Program-made: the position numbers and the translations under genes
The notes under the pieces: model-generated
Databases searched by the model: none
The model's input: only the letters and a program-made list of their open reading frames with translations
Told to the model about the DNA's origin: nothing
In this document: one piece after another, positions 7,280-13,224 of the stretch
Layout of the letters: each line of letters begins with the position of its first letter
How positions within the stretch are numbered: the stretch's first letter is position 1
Origin: Candidatus Onthovivens merdipullorum
GTDB lineage: Bacteria > Bacillota_I > Bacilli_A > RFN20 > CAG-826
Direction: 5' to 3'
DNA: 43,406 nucleotides
Assembly (NCBI GenBank): GCA_017694345.1
Contig: JADIMY010000086.1
Span: 1 to 43,406 of the forward strand

Positions 7280-7304
7280 TACCACTTGTATATGTAAGGT
7301 GGTA
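7280..7304 (+). promoter_or_regulatory. RBS-sequestering hairpin in the leader of the Tad-like operon
   Basis: TACCACTT (7280-7287) pairs with AGGTGGTA (7297-7304; one T-G wobble); the 3' arm contains the AAGGTGG Shine-Dalgarno. Confidence 0.5.
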
Positions 7305-7307
7305 AAG

Positions 7308-8345
7308 ATGAGAAAATTATTAATATTATTCACTTCATTATTAAGTCTAACTTCACTTGGATTCATAAAAAAGAATGCTTTAAGTAGTAAAAATTATACT
7401 GAAAAGACTTATAAAGCTCCTAGCTATTATCAAATTAAAAATTTTGTACATTCTTTTGATTCCAAAAATGAATATCTAGTAGGAGAAGTTCCTTTAACAA
7501 TAAAATTAATTAATACTCAATATTATGTTGGAATAAATTATATTGATAAAAATAATAAAGAAATAAATTTAATTGAAGAGACTGTTAGAGATAAAGTAAG
7601 TTCTTCAAATAAAAATTATACATTAGATTTTAAATTGCCTTTAGCTAATTTAAAAGCGAATAGTAAAATTACAATTTATATTGAAGCTCCTTTATTAAGA
7701 AATGAATTAGAGATTACTTATAATATTACAAACCCAAAAGAAATAATTGATTTAAGCGAGAATAATAAAATCTATTACAATTTTGAATATTTTAATAATA
7801 CTGGTAAAAATTACTTTTATGAAGTAGTTCCTACTAGTTTTATAGAATGCGAGAAAAATATTTTTTATTTCGATTATTTTTCTTTTAAAGATTTTTATAT
7901 TGAATCTAATTATAGTAATACACCAAATCCATATTTATATATTTACGATAAATCAACTTTGTTTTTGAATGTTTTTACAACCATGAGTGGGGAAAGTACT
8001 TCAAAAAAATTTACTCCTTTAATCTTAACTAAAGATGGAAATAAATATTATATAGGTTATAAAAATAAAATTTATTTAAATAAGAATAATAATATTATGT
8101 ATTTAAATAATTTAGGAAATTATATAGAAGTAGAAGATAGAATCTATATGCCTAGTAATTATTACTATACATATAAAGATTTTAAAATTGGAATTTACTT
8201 TAAAAATTTTTCCAGTTTTAAATATCGTTTAACTTATGAAATTGAAATTCATTTTGAAGAAAATTATCGAAAAGAAGATAGTGTAATTTATAAAGAATAT
8301 GGATATGTTACACAAGATGATGTTTTAGAAGGAGTAAAAGTATGA
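7308..8345 (+). CDS. Secreted beta-rich protein, first gene of the Tad-like locus
   Basis: N-terminal signal peptide MRKLLILFTSLLSLTSLGF; ATG overlap with the next gene; RBS AAGGTGG. Confidence 0.7.
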   Translation: MRKLLILFTSLLSLTSLGFIKKNALSSKNYTEKTYKAPSYYQIKNFVHSFDSKNEYLVGEVPLTIKLINTQYYVGINYIDKNNKEINLIEETVRDKVSSSNKNYTLDFKLPLANLKANSKITIYIEAPLLRNELEITYNITNPKEIIDLSENNKIYYNFEYFNNTGKNYFYEVVPTSFIECEKNIFYFDYFSFKDFYIESNYSNTPNPYLYIYDKSTLFLNVFTTMSGESTSKKFTPLILTKDGNKYYIGYKNKIYLNKNNNIMYLNNLGNYIEVEDRIYMPSNYYYTYKDFKIGIYFKNFSSFKYRLTYEIEIHFEENYRKEDSVIYKEYGYVTQDDVLEGVKV

Positions 8346-8749
8346 ATGTATCAATATTTTTCTTTGTAACAGTAATATTTTTAACTTTATTTAATGGATT
8401 TAATATTGGAATAAAAGGAAACTATATTAGTAGAACTTTTATTGATTTACCTGTAAGTCTTATTAAATCTTGTGTTTTAGTAAATGAAGAATCATATGAT
8501 GAAAATTCTTCTTATTTTGATAAAAATAAGCTTGAAGAAAATGTTAAAGAATATCTTACGATAAACTTAAAAGAACATGTAGAATCATATAATTTATCGT
8601 TTTATTACTTTTATTATGATGAAAATTTGGATTTAATTTATGATTTAGGTAATTATCCAAAAAATGTGCAAATACATTTTAATGCTGATATTTATAAAAA
8701 CATCGATATTGACAAATATTTAGTATTTACAATGGAAGATTTATTTTAA
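8342..8749 (+). CDS. Small membrane-anchored pseudopilin/TadE-like protein
   Basis: Single N-terminal TM segment plus extracytoplasmic domain; operon position directly before the CpaF-like ATPase. Confidence 0.5.
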   Translation: MNVSIFFFVTVIFLTLFNGFNIGIKGNYISRTFIDLPVSLIKSCVLVNEESYDENSSYFDKNKLEENVKEYLTINLKEHVESYNLSFYYFYYDENLDLIYDLGNYPKNVQIHFNADIYKNIDIDKYLVFTMEDLF

Positions 8750-8762
8750 AAAGGAAGAGATT

Positions 8763-9815
8763 ATGGAAAAAGAAAGACTTATTAATTTTATCGAAAATTC
8801 GTTTATTAAGGATTTATTAAATAATCCTAACATTACAGATGTATCTTATAATGGTGAAAATATCTTTTATCAAGATAATATGGTAGGTAGAGTTAAATCT
8901 AGTTTAGAAGTTACTCAAAAAGAAGTACTTGATTTTATCCGTCAAATCGCCAATTTAAGTGATAATCAATTTAGTTACACTGATCCGATTTTAGATATGT
9001 CGATTGGTCGCTATAGAATAAATGCGACACATATGGCAATTGCTAGAAAAAATAGAGCAAACGCAATTACCTTTTCAATTAGAATAGGCTATGATGAACT
9101 AAGAATTAAAGAAGATAATACTTTTATAAAAGATAAGGCAATTGATTTATTAAAATTATTTTTGAACCGAAATAAATCTATTGTTATAGGTGGTTTAACT
9201 AGTAGTGGTAAAACAGAATTTCAAAAATATTTAATCTCTAAACTTAAACCAGCTACTAGAGTAATTATTATTGATAATGTCGATGAATTAGATAGTGATT
9301 ATATTAATAAATCAATAGATTTACAAACTTGGTTAAATCTAGAAAAGTTTAAAAATATTAATTTTGATAATTTGATTAAAAATGCCCTAAGAAATAATCC
9401 TGATTATTTAATAGTAAGTGAAGCTCGAGGAGAAGAAATGCTTTCGATATTAAATAGTGCGATGAGCGGTCACCCAACGATTACAACATTACACTCTAAA
9501 GACATCTATTCAATGTATCATAGAATGACTAGATTATGTATGTTAAAAAATCAAAATCTAAAATTTAATGAAACTTTAGAAGACATTTTTGATCAATTTA
9601 AGCTTTTAATATATCTTAAAAAAGAGATTTCAAAAGATGGAAAAGTAATAAGATATGTCGATCAAATTGCGACAAATCGATTTAAAAATATAAGGCTATT
9701 ATTTAAATATCCTAATACTTATTATCAGATTCCTAACTCCATTAAATATGATTTAAATTTAAGCGATGAAGAATTTATAAGTTTTAAAACAAGATGGGAG
9801 AGTAATAATGCATAA
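8763..9815 (+). CDS. CpaF/TadA-type secretion ATPase
   Basis: Walker A GGLTSSGKTEF, VSEARGEEM Walker B region, TTLHSKD His-box typical of T2SS/Tad ATPases. Confidence 0.88.
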   Translation: MEKERLINFIENSFIKDLLNNPNITDVSYNGENIFYQDNMVGRVKSSLEVTQKEVLDFIRQIANLSDNQFSYTDPILDMSIGRYRINATHMAIARKNRANAITFSIRIGYDELRIKEDNTFIKDKAIDLLKLFLNRNKSIVIGGLTSSGKTEFQKYLISKLKPATRVIIIDNVDELDSDYINKSIDLQTWLNLEKFKNINFDNLIKNALRNNPDYLIVSEARGEEMLSILNSAMSGHPTITTLHSKDIYSMYHRMTRLCMLKNQNLKFNETLEDIFDQFKLLIYLKKEISKDGKVIRYVDQIATNRFKNIRLLFKYPNTYYQIPNSIKYDLNLSDEEFISFKTRWESNNA

Positions 9816-10599
9816 AAGGTTATTAGTATATTTAGTAATTATTCTTTTAACATCGTTTTTATACTATTTTTCTACTAATAATCTATTACTTTCTTTAATA
9901 GTAGGTGTTATTGGAATTTTATCTTTAATACTTATAGAAAATAAAATATTTAATTATTATAAAAAAGCTAAAAAGACCCATGAATGTATTCAGTTTATGA
10001 ATAACTTTATAATTACTTTATCGATAAATAAGAGTATTTTATCAACTTATGAAATATGTTCTAAATCTTTTTCTAAAGAATTAAAACAACAAGATAAATT
10101 ATTAAGTAATCTAGATGTTGAAACAAGAATTCATTATTTATCTAAATATTTTAATAATTCTACATATGAGGTGTTTATTAAACTGTTGGATCAATATATT
10201 TATAATGGTGGTGAAATTTTAAAAATATCGCAAATCTTATTATTTGATGCACGCCAACTTGAAGAAGATATCGATAATCAATATTTACTAATTATTAAGA
10301 AAATATTTGAATTTGGTAGTTTATGGCTGATTACTTTCATTATTTTGGTAATTATAAAATTTAGTTTAAACGATTATTTTCTTAAAATTAGTAATCTTGA
10401 TTACTTTAAATATGGATTACTTGGATTCTTTGGTTTCTTTTATATAAATACTATTTTCTTTGTATATAACGCTTTTAATTTAAATTTTGTTAAAGAAGTT
10501 GTTAAAGAAAATAATAAAAAGAAAGTTACTAAAACTAAAAAAGATAAAAAGGAGAAAATCAAGAATGTTAAAATTAAAAGAAAAAATGCTTTTAACTAA
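9808..10599 (+). CDS. TadB-like type II/IV filament platform membrane protein with Lys-rich tail
   Basis: Position after the ATPase; two N-terminal TMs, cytoplasmic helical (T2SSF-like) domain, C-terminal TMs. Confidence 0.65.
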   Translation: MHKRLLVYLVIILLTSFLYYFSTNNLLLSLIVGVIGILSLILIENKIFNYYKKAKKTHECIQFMNNFIITLSINKSILSTYEICSKSFSKELKQQDKLLSNLDVETRIHYLSKYFNNSTYEVFIKLLDQYIYNGGEILKISQILLFDARQLEEDIDNQYLLIIKKIFEFGSLWLITFIILVIIKFSLNDYFLKISNLDYFKYGLLGFFGFFYINTIFFVYNAFNLNFVKEVVKENNKKKVTKTKKDKKEKIKNVKIKRKNAFN

Positions 10600-11227
10600 T
10601 AAAGATCCTAAAAAAGAGATTCTTAATAATGTGCTAATAAATGTCGTTATATTATTAGTTTCAATTACAACATATTTACTAACGAAAAACTTTATGTATT
10701 TTATATATTTTGGAGCAACTTTAATTTTATTTAATTTTTATTACTTTAGTCGATATGGAAGATCTTTAGGCAAAAATAATGAAGTATTAGTCGATGATTT
10801 TATTGATACATTTACTTATTTTAGAATCTATGTTTCTAATAACCGTAATGTCTACATGTCATTAAAAGAAATTAGTAATTATTCTTCTCCTTTTATAAAA
10901 GGAAAACTTAATGAACTATTAAATGATATTGATGAAGACAAATCTTTAAAACCATTTCTTAAGTTTGCAAGTTATTTTAATAACAGAAAAGTAGAAGAAG
11001 TAATGATAGCGATATATGAAATGATTGATGAAGGAAGTAACGAAAACTATATCAATCAGTTTATTCAAACCTTCATGGCTTTTAAACTTAGGGTTAATAA
11101 AAAAAGAGAAGATAAAAGAAATTCAAATATAAATTTATCAATTACTTTAAGTATTGTTGGAGTAGGTATCTTAATGATTCTAATAATGCTTGGCATTATA
11201 TCAATTTTAGGAGAAATAGTTGTATGA
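10565..11227 (+). CDS. TadC-like platform membrane protein (ORF track start 10487 is probably too early)
   Basis: Start MLKLKEKMLLTNKD with AAGGAG RBS upstream; TM topology similar to the preceding gene; C-terminal TM. Confidence 0.6.
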   Translation: MLKLKEKMLLTNKDPKKEILNNVLINVVILLVSITTYLLTKNFMYFIYFGATLILFNFYYFSRYGRSLGKNNEVLVDDFIDTFTYFRIYVSNNRNVYMSLKEISNYSSPFIKGKLNELLNDIDEDKSLKPFLKFASYFNNRKVEEVMIAIYEMIDEGSNENYINQFIQTFMAFKLRVNKKREDKRNSNINLSITLSIVGVGILMILIMLGIISILGEIVV

Positions 11228-11589
11228 GTAATAAATTAGCATTAATTTTATGTATTCCATTTATTTTATTCGTGTTCTTGTTTGGAGTAGATCTAGTAAT
11301 GATTCAAACAGTCTATACAAATTTAGATTCAATAAGTGAAACGATATCTTATAAGATTTCACAAAACGGGATTGATTCAAATGGGAATATTGATAAAAGT
11401 ATAGAACAATATCTATACGAAACAACAGGAGCGATTATAGTTTCTAACAACAATAATAAGGCTAATTTCTTAGAAGGTGACATCTTCGCCTATACGCTTT
11501 CTAAAGAATATCAACCAATATTATTGTCTAGTAAAACTATAACAATAAATATTGATCGATACGCAGTTATCGGAATTAATCATTCATAA
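11224..11589 (+). CDS. TadE-like pseudopilin
   Basis: N-terminal TM (LALILCIPFILFVFLFGVDLVM) plus small exported domain; ATGA overlap with the preceding gene. Confidence 0.5.
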   Translation: MSNKLALILCIPFILFVFLFGVDLVMIQTVYTNLDSISETISYKISQNGIDSNGNIDKSIEQYLYETTGAIIVSNNNNKANFLEGDIFAYTLSKEYQPILLSSKTITINIDRYAVIGINHS

Positions 11590-11602
11590 GGAGGTATTAA
11601 AC

Positions 11603-11779
11603 ATGGGTGAAATTAAAGGTCAATTATTAGGAATTGTATTAGTATTATCAATCTTTGGTATTGTAGCAACAGCTTTAACTACAGCATTTACAAATGTTAG
11701 CGACGATGTTGTTACCAAAATAGAAAGTTCAACAGAAATTACACCAGCTGCTCAAAATAACGATTTACTTAGCTTCTGA
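11603..11779 (+). CDS. Putative Flp/archaellin-type prepilin, 58 aa
   Basis: MGEIKGQLLGIVLVLSIFGIVATALTTAFTNVSDDVV...: short leader with KG|Q candidate processing site followed by hydrophobic helix; strong AAGGAGG RBS; last gene of operon. Confidence 0.6.
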   Translation: MGEIKGQLLGIVLVLSIFGIVATALTTAFTNVSDDVVTKIESSTEITPAAQNNDLLSF

Positions 11780-11799
11780 GCTAAATAATTAATAGATGT

Positions 11800-11832
11800 A
11801 AAAAAATTAGGTTTATGGGGCCTAATTTTTTT
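11800..11832 (+). terminator. Rho-independent terminator of the Tad-like operon
   Basis: AAAAAAATTAGG / CCTAATTTTTTT inverted repeat with 9-nt loop. Confidence 0.85.
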
Positions 11833-11847
11833 GATTTATTTAATATG

Positions 11848-12242
11848 AAGTAGATGAAGTAGCCACTACATTAATACGAAGCGATAAATATAATGCTTTA
11901 GGTAATAAAGAAAAAGCCGAATTGCTTAAAAAGTTATTCGATTATTATTTTGATTATGCAAAAAATATGACACTTAACTTAAACGAAGGTTCTAGATTTG
12001 TTAAAGCAATGACTTTAATTAATAATTTTGATATATCTAAATATTTATTTCTTAAAGGTGAAACAAAAGAAGAAAGCGTTAAAGAAGTTAATAAAATATT
12101 TATAACAAGAAACCAAAGATTATTTGCTTTATTTTTACTTGGGTATAATTTAACTAAAGAAAACAAACAAGTTCTATATCGATATTTAATTACTTTAGGA
12201 GTGAATAGGAATACTGTTAAAGAATGGGTTGGTATTGAATAA
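11848..12242 (+). pseudogene. 5'-truncated ORF fragment (..EVDEVATTLIRSDKYNALGNKEKAELLKKLFDYYFDYAKNMTL...), probable remnant
   Basis: Open frame begins directly after an in-frame TAA without ATG/GTG or RBS; coding-like sequence upstream of the predicted TTG start at 11922. Confidence 0.4.
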
Positions 12243-12420: not shown

Positions 12421-12497
12421 TGGCGCGCCTGACAGGAGTCGAACCCGTAACCTCTTGGTTCGTAGCCAAGCACTCTATCCAGTTGAGCTACAGGCGC
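12421..12497 (-). tRNA. tRNA-Arg(ACG), CCA encoded
   Basis: Cloverleaf GCGCCTG...TTGGCTACGAACCAAG...GGTTCGACTCC...CAGGCGCGCCA. Confidence 0.93.
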
Positions 12498-12542
12498 TTT
12501 AAATAAAAAAAGATACTTTAGCGTATCTTGTATATTTAAGTT

Positions 12543-12619
12543 TGGTCGGGGCGACTGGATTTGAACCAGCGGCCTTCAGTTCCCAAAACTGACGCGATAC
12601 CAAGCTACGCTACGCCCCG
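12543..12619 (-). tRNA. tRNA-Pro(TGG), CCA encoded
   Basis: Cloverleaf CGGGGCG...TCAGTTTTGGGAACTGA...GGTTCAAATCC...CGCCCCGACCA. Confidence 0.93.
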
Positions 12620-12622
12620 AAA

Positions 12623-12699
12623 TGGTGACCTATACGGGATTCGAACCCATGAATGCATGCGTGAAAGGCATGTGAGTTAAGCCACTTCTCCAATAGGCC
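12623..12699 (-). tRNA. tRNA-Glu(TTC), CCA encoded
   Basis: GGCCTAT...CATGCCTTTCACGCATG...GGTTCGAATCC...ATAGGTCACCA. Confidence 0.9.
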
Positions 12700-12701
12700 A
12701 A

Positions 12702-12776
12702 TGGCGCCAACTATAGGGCTCGAACCTACAACCGATCGGTTAACAGCCGATTGCTCTACCATTGAGCTAAGTTGGC
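12702..12776 (-). tRNA. tRNA-Asn(GTT), CCA encoded
   Basis: GCCAACT...ATCGGCTGTTAACCGAT...GGTTCGAGCCC...AGTTGGCGCCA. Confidence 0.92.
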
Positions 12777-12838: not shown

Positions 12839-13063
12839 TTATTTTAGCTTAGATTTTACAAGTCTTAATAAATCACCTAAATTTTTTAATTCTTGGGTTT
12901 CTTGAGGTTCAAATTTAATACCATAGGAATCTTCTAAGTCAAGAATAACTTCGACTACATCTAAAGAATCTAAACCTAGACTTGCTAAAGTAGCATTTTC
13001 ATCAATTTCAGCGATGTTTAATTTTTCTTTAATTTTTTCTTCTATTTCTTCATATTTAACCAT
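12839..13063 (-). CDS. acpP: Acyl carrier protein
   Basis: LGLDSLDVVEVILDLED phosphopantetheine motif; likely start MVKYEEIEEK. Confidence 0.9.
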   Translation of the reverse strand: MVKYEEIEEKIKEKLNIAEIDENATLASLGLDSLDVVEVILDLEDSYGIKFEPQETQELKNLGDLLRLVKSKLK

Positions 13064-13224
13064 AAATTTACCTCGTTTTTGATATTTTAACATAAATTAA
13101 TTTTATAAAAAATATAATATTGCTTAATATTGATTGTGACAGTTAACAAAATATTTTTTGTGGAAATTATTTTTTACTATGATTTAGTCTTAATTTCCTT
13201 TACAATTAGTAAACAGGTGAACAT

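Follow-up and report, generated by a model that had tools for sequence, protein, structure and literature searches.

Tad-type pili and their prepilin peptidases

Most loci for Tad, or type IVc (Flp), pili in Gram-positive bacteria encode their own prepilin peptidase, TadV, and filament systems that have no such gene are presumed to rely on an enzyme encoded outside the locus (PMC3244431, PMC12786226, PMC6668835); in Bulleidia extructa the tad locus comprises 13 genes with tadV first (PMC12786226). Surveys have held that a locus may miss the peptidase only since another system in the genome supplies one, and MSH pilus loci, which have no prepilin peptidase gene, always co-occur with a system having one (PMC6668835). 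Here we describe a seven-gene cassette at positions 7308-11779 of contig JADIMY010000086.1 of Candidatus Onthovivens merdipullorum (assembly GCA_017694345.1), whose 43,406 nucleotides (nt), hereafter the window, form one complete contig of a draft genome of 1.46 Mb in 137 contigs (86% complete). To our knowledge, leader cleavage by A24 prepilin peptidases has been treated as a universal step in type IV filament assembly, and in the open-licence literature we found neither a peptidase-free Tad or type IV filament system nor pili reported for RFN20, the order to which the carriers of the cassette probably belong.

We interpret the cassette as a minimal machine for Tad-type (type IVc) filaments that would run without an A24 peptidase, on a pilin that would stay uncut and in which Glu3 and Lys5 would pair, a reading to which we assign a probability of roughly 0.58. 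Extended to the order as a whole, this would describe largely wall-less Bacilli whose Tad-type pilins are never cut, with the leader reduced to the initiator methionine and a Glu3/Lys5 pair replacing the Glu5 rule, a generalization that we hold only tentatively and at slightly less than even odds.

Most genomes with the cassette have no recognisable A24 peptidase

Peptidase-family absence and motif absence were both computed directly, with samples of 280 genomes of the order (ATPase and PF01478 searches; 274 for the pilin), 246 genomes across the class, and 59 relatives. The search with PF01478, the A24 prepilin peptidase family, which also recovers archaeal peptidases and 12 of 14 control genomes, gave no match in the window's own genome. 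Thus the statement of a first-pass annotation, made from the sequence of the window, that no peptidase lies in it was confirmed, and it extends to the genome and nearly order-wide. In the same search, 12 of the order's 280 genomes exceeded the PF01478 cut-off, vs 105 of 246 across the class, and our tally of near-complete genomes of the order carrying the cassette ATPase left about 110 of 114 with no A24 match.

The most stringent case is a relative (G270) whose genome is a single contig of 1.06 Mb at 99% completeness, which holds the whole cassette and was searched except for its last 2 kb. A profile built from peptidases of the order and of outgroups, resting on five sequences only, reached a best E of 0.26-0.41 in this genome with no credible candidate, and scans of its multi-pass proteins for GxGD and a relaxed motif gave no plausible peptidase. 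Five proteins found by these scans were rejected by reading, as their sequences suggested signal peptidase II, a diadenylate cyclase, a protein resembling ECF transporters, and others without relation to peptidases of this kind. A partial PF01478 match in another genome (G003) was rejected as well, being below the cut-off and covering 61 positions in a 94-residue (aa) frame with no prepilins nearby. Where peptidases do occur in the order, three (G022, G005, G042) sit within PilB/PilC competence-type clusters with prepilins of the form KKG|FTLIE or KRA|FTLIE, and the remaining peptidase-bearing genomes have at least one extra ATPase match, with the exception of G055 (a single match, in a 588-aa frame).

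One could ask whether the peptidase is real and has simply been lost from incomplete assemblies, given that the window's genome is 86% complete and split over 137 contigs. The near-complete cassette genomes without A24 speak against this and, because G270 has the cassette and no A24 enzyme, we reject assembly gaps as the cause and regard this explanation as close to refuted.

Other Tad components were sought in the 59 relatives, where RcpC/CpaB (PF16976) and secretin (PF00263) were found in none, the latter as expected for a monoderm; TadZ/CpaE does not occur in the cassette, and no genome-wide search was made for it.

A compact cassette with a CpaF-type ATPase and two platform proteins

The features of the cassette are as follows.

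7308-8345, + strand: P1, 345 aa from the ATG after an AAGGTGG site, or 348 aa if the start is the GTG at 7299
8342-8749, + strand: P2, a small protein, candidate minor pilin or assembly protein
8763-9815, + strand: assembly ATPase of the TadA/CpaF/VirB11 superfamily, 350 aa (Pfam T2SSE, PDB profile matches, tree)
9808-10599, + strand: TadB-like inner-membrane platform protein (profile match to the TadC-like family; placed between ATPase and TadC)
10565-11227 (ATG 10565), + strand: TadC-like inner-membrane platform protein (T2SSF in 6/30 family members)
11224-11589, + strand: P6, TadE/TadF-like pseudopilin candidate, 121 aa (weak TadF/TadE matches, alignment)
11588-11594, + strand: Shine-Dalgarno site AAGGAGG of the pilin gene (sequence; related loci arranged alike)
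11603-11779, + strand: Flp-like pilin candidate, 58 aa, MGEIKGQLLGIVLV... (alignment; hexapeptide or no leader, without (G/A)x4E)
11797-11836, + strand: intrinsic terminator at the cassette end (hairpin-T; fold energy)

The first-pass annotation had described seven closely packed genes, among them a CpaF-type ATPase, two TadB/TadC-like platform proteins and a closing 58-aa pilin candidate, with a strong terminator behind them, and all of these elements held up. The seven open reading frames (ORFs) lie on one strand with neighbours either overlapping or separated by at most 14 nt, and the terminator has a fold energy of -13.0 kcal/mol, where shuffled sequences average -4.3 (z = -4.3). The ATPase, with motifs GGLTSSGKTE (Walker A), SEARGEE and TTLHSKD, provides the only clear Pfam assignment in the cassette (T2SSE, 1.3e-19), and among solved structures in the PDB its profile comes closest to archaeal GspE2 (AfGspE2), VirB11 and CpaF, at 3.6e-33 to 1.4e-28 (CpaF at 1.4e-28). 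The TadB-like and TadC-like profiles match each other (hhalign E 4.6e-10), revealing the two as paralogues, and T2SSF was found in 6 of 30 members of the TadC-like family (best 2.3e-5).

Against NCBIfam the ATPase remained below every cut-off, scoring 112 bits for VirB11 (cut-off 250), 89 for TadA (373) and 67 for ComGA (300). An identity as a ComG competence pilus was rejected on the ComGA score and because competence clusters stand separately, and an identity as a type IV secretion system was rejected on the VirB11 score and because no other component of such a system appears among the Pfam and NCBIfam matches of the cassette.

Conservation and descent

Gene content, synteny and purifying selection were likewise computed directly, comparing more than 30 loci of related genomes plus 80 named loci (the synteny count of 60 loci excludes the first set). 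The order carrying the cassette consists of uncultured Bacilli and is probably RFN20. Its loci in related genomes come from rumen and gut, and one cassette-bearing relative is Candidatus Fiminaster equi, assigned by GTDB to order RFN20, family CAG-826 (PMC8957277), by which the window itself would fall in RFN20 and probably in CAG-826.

Of 60 independent loci from other genomes, the synteny survey revealed 46 with exactly the gene order P1-P2-ATPase-TadB-TadC-P6-pilin; the rest miss at least one gene at the profile threshold, partly due to contig ends or a too-divergent P1. Of the 59 relatives, 38 have the cassette ATPase, as do 210 of the order's 280 genomes, and the pilin was detected in 192 of 274. 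Ratios of nonsynonymous to synonymous substitution (dN/dS) between close pairs are mostly 0.01-0.4, usually lowest for the ATPase and higher for P1, and together with the synteny these values argue that the cassette is not a product of chance. In two close pairs the pilin stands at 0.5-0.7, unlike the remaining cassette genes.

In the ATPase tree a branch with good support (99/98) sets the order apart, and its neighbours are other Bacilli ATPases, which adjoin two T2SSF-like platform genes and, at one locus, also RcpC/CpaB. Because the tree has several weak deep forks, along with long branches, we used only the grouping of the order. Taken together, these sequence comparisons indicate that the cassette is old, under selection within the order, and not recently imported.

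These results also bear on the idea that the cassette is a decaying Tad relic without present function. Such decay could be seen in one locus with P1 and P2 broken (L045) and another with a short P2 (L053), but reading frames are intact and dN/dS low across the order, gene order is conserved in the 46 loci, and the ATPase tree is compatible with inheritance from the order's ancestor, such that we consider a relic highly improbable.

A divergent version of the cassette occurs in one genome (G020; L072/L316), with an ATPase 31% identical and no pilin; in the pilin's place are two proteins of 320 and 195 aa with an N-terminal hydrophobic segment.

The pilin and its N-terminus

A dedicated Flp-sized pilin occurs in nearly all loci, at 45-78 aa and with no match to the Pfam Flp family. 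All 90 pilins aligned begin M[SGA]E[IVLFM]K[GA] directly after a Shine-Dalgarno site, as in G270 (MSEIKGQFLGMILV...). The canonical prepilin motif (G/A)x4E was found in none of these 90 within their first 25 residues and in none of 35 P2 proteins within their first 20, and a looser (G/A)x4[E/D] occurs in only 4 of 85 P6 proteins. The missing A24 enzyme and the missing (G/A)x4E site thus go hand in hand across the whole cassette.

The start of the pilin in the window is set at ATG 11603 by the Shine-Dalgarno site, and since the open frame upstream of pilins is often just 0-7 codons and the Shine-Dalgarno site adjoins the ATG, a long leader is mostly impossible. A longer leader from an upstream start was accordingly rejected on the Shine-Dalgarno position and because the frame is often closed within a few codons. 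Glu3 and Lys5 are invariant, though they lie inside the would-be leader. Residue 2 is G, A or S in 100% of pilins vs 21% of G270 proteins, which is weak evidence given that orthologues are not independent; methionine aminopeptidase tolerates S, G or A at this position, and from its constancy we propose that Met1 is removed by this enzyme. Phe is the last residue in about half of the pilins, commonly within L-L-x-F or L-x-F.

Several considerations weigh against an uncut pilin and a peptidase-free machine. Position 6 is always G or A, with Lys before it; prepilin peptidases accept both G and A at -1, and on this sequence cleavage after residue 6 is plausible. A missing family need not mean a missing activity, and a non-homologous protease could cut. 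Most of the genomes are draft metagenome-assembled genomes, the window's own at 86% completeness included, and both the filament and the mature pilin N-terminus are predictions from the genes. In addition, a second Bacilli family with Tad loci (f17; L307, L310-L313, L315) has pilins of the form MKEATGELNMT..., which share the short direct N-terminus without (G/A)x4E, and an A24 peptidase in 26 of its 28 genomes with the ATPase (tally). As these pilins are motif-free despite A24, the short N-terminus did not arise with peptidase loss. The A24 peptidase in this family may serve competence, and on one reading the pilin would have become independent of the peptidase before the order lost the enzyme along with competence.

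One competing explanation keeps the same Tad-like filament and has the pilin cut after residue 6 (MSEIKG|QLLG...) by a non-A24-like peptidase encoded elsewhere. It would account for G or A at residue 6 in 90/90 pilins after an invariant Lys and for G, S or A at residue 6 of P6 in 83/85, a pattern resembling a short class III leader, and where other families of the order have A instead of G, the exchange would be one tolerated at -1. However, no such gene was found by profile or motif in the cassette or in the nearly whole G270 genome, an invariant E3/K5 in the discarded part would be unlike ordinary leaders, and Glu at +5 is absent in 90/90. We therefore regard hidden cleavage as unlikely.

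Under the preferred reading of a peptidase-independent machine, the ATPase would drive TadB and TadC, which would draw the 58-aa pilin out of the membrane to form a thin filament. P6, and perhaps also P2, would initiate the filament or serve as minor pilins, and P1 would be secreted to act at the surface or tip. The pilin would be made with a cytoplasmic N-terminus of at most six residues; methionine aminopeptidase would remove Met1, all that follows, with E-x-K-G-Q, would stay in the mature pilin, and the invariant Glu3/Lys5 pair would stand in for Glu5, which provides the charge pairing in ordinary pilins. Filament formation, the uncut pilin and the role of Glu3/Lys5 are what we infer from the genes.

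P1, P2 and P6

P1 begins with a signal-peptide-like segment and is the least conserved cassette protein, with 13-48% identity in alignment. No Pfam family matched it; its AlphaFold2 model, of moderate confidence (mean predicted local distance difference test score, pLDDT, 76.6), has strands throughout and gave weak immunoglobulin-like or beta-sandwich Foldseek matches only against the PDB, none at E<=0.001. P1 is duplicated in three relatives (L048-L050), and divergence and duplication are as expected for a surface-exposed protein, no more. We thus see P1 as a fast-evolving, beta-rich secreted protein and possibly an adhesin or tip. P1 proteins of the window's genus mostly end in an acidic-hydrophobic tail (e.g., DDxLEEVxI), and those of several other genera have a G[DER]Cxx[ST]x[WY]C motif in the C-terminal region instead.

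P2 has a confident model (pLDDT 89.9), in which an N-terminal helix of 33 residues leads into an alpha/beta domain; it has no Pfam match and no significant fold match in the PDB by Foldseek, and its profile does not match that of P6. The architecture fits a pilin-like protein, an assignment that found no confirmation by sequence or by fold. P6 has an N-terminus of the form M[GSA]xKx[GSA] followed by a hydrophobic segment, and its family gave weak matches to TadF (2.5e-4, 2 of 31 members) and TadE (0.017, 1 of 31).

For these three proteins the first-pass annotation fared less well. Its proposal of P1 as a tip adhesin gained a beta-rich model and no significant structural match, and neither Pfam nor fold search supports its TadE-like label for P2. 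The same label for P6 stands as far as the weak TadF and TadE matches go. Foldseek, which it had suggested for the structure models of all seven products, was run for P1 and P2, with no significant match for either.

The place of P1 also bears on whether the cassette might be a secretion or pseudopilus device that exports P1 or other proteins, or takes up DNA, instead of building a surface pilus. Type II secretion and competence use the same ATPase/platform core, P1 is secreted and stands first in the operon, and G020 keeps the other genes without the pilin. Against this, a 45-78-aa Flp-sized pilin is found in nearly all loci, secretin in none of the 59 relatives, and the competence ATPase, PilC and prepilins lie in a separate cluster where inspected, such that a secretion or uptake device appears quite improbable to us.

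Cell envelope and significance

The penicillin-binding transpeptidase family PF00905 is absent from the window's genome and from its whole genus bar one match (G001), which sits on a contig of a draft genome whose contamination is 4%; the domain does occur in several of the order's other families. From this absence in the genus, the host is probably wall-less, and the sequence data suggest that the cassette probably operates in single-membrane cells that have little or no wall. The view of a pared-down Tad/Flp-like machine in bacteria with a single membrane, as initially annotated, is thereby supported, secretin and RcpC being absent from the 59 relatives and peptidoglycan transpeptidases from the genus.

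Selection keeps a filament machine in many genomes without a recognisable A24 enzyme, and seven genes suffice to put the necessity of leader cleavage to the test. If our reading of a minimal, peptidase-independent pilus is true, it would place a pilus in a predicted wall-less lineage, with neither outer membrane nor peptidoglycan to cross; a Gram-positive survey took the Mollicutes as its negative set without type IV pilus genes (PMC3244431).

Neighbouring genes

Downstream of the cassette are a 106-aa uncharacterised ORF (11922-12242, + strand), four transfer RNA (tRNA) genes (Arg, Pro, Glu, Asn; 12421-12776, - strand) and, beyond these and also on the strand opposite to the cassette, an acyl carrier protein gene (12839-13093, - strand; PP-binding 2.9e-12). 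In 29 of 72 loci, far above chance, an acyl carrier protein gene lies on the same strand within 700 nt downstream of the pilin, and the one in G270 (925188-925445) is the sole such ORF of that size in its genome. A gene of about 100-126 aa often stands directly upstream of P1 in other genera (L064, L065-L070, and G270 at 929824-930186), and it is absent in the window and in those loci of its genus that were read.

Comparison with known systems

The competence (ComG/ComC-type) clusters of the order (L073, L074, L078) are, like the cassette, members of the type IV filament superfamily but differ in having an A24 peptidase, canonical prepilins (FTLIE) and an ATPase of another clade; a few genomes of the order keep such a cluster, separate from the cassette. 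The MSH pilus shares with the cassette a locus missing its peptidase gene, whereas most cassette genomes have no recognisable peptidase to borrow.

A Tad locus from another family of the class (G280, L305) has two platform genes and a P6-like gene, and its ATPase scores highest among the outgroups sampled in the class (9.6e-83). It differs in an in-locus TadV-like A24 peptidase of 122 aa (IGGGDIKVL), and a pilin was looked for within the locus and not found. The f17 loci, whose pilins resemble that of the cassette at the N-terminus, likewise have a Tad-type ATPase and two platform genes, and differ in further genes that include RcpC/CpaB (L310: PF16976 at 2e-6).

Compared with the Gram-positive Tad, or type IVc (Flp), pilus (PMC3244431; Bulleidia extructa, PMC12786226), the cassette comes without A24/TadV in the genome, RcpC, secretin or (G/A)x4E, has no TadZ among its genes, and carries an extra gene, P1, of no known family. 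The two share a CpaF/TadA-type ATPase, adjacent TadB and TadC, a very short pilin without a globular domain, and, as a candidate on weak matches, a TadF/TadE-like small protein. Given that TadV and the prepilin site are missing while the ATPase and double platform are present, we consider the cassette Tad-like rather than an ordinary Tad pilus.

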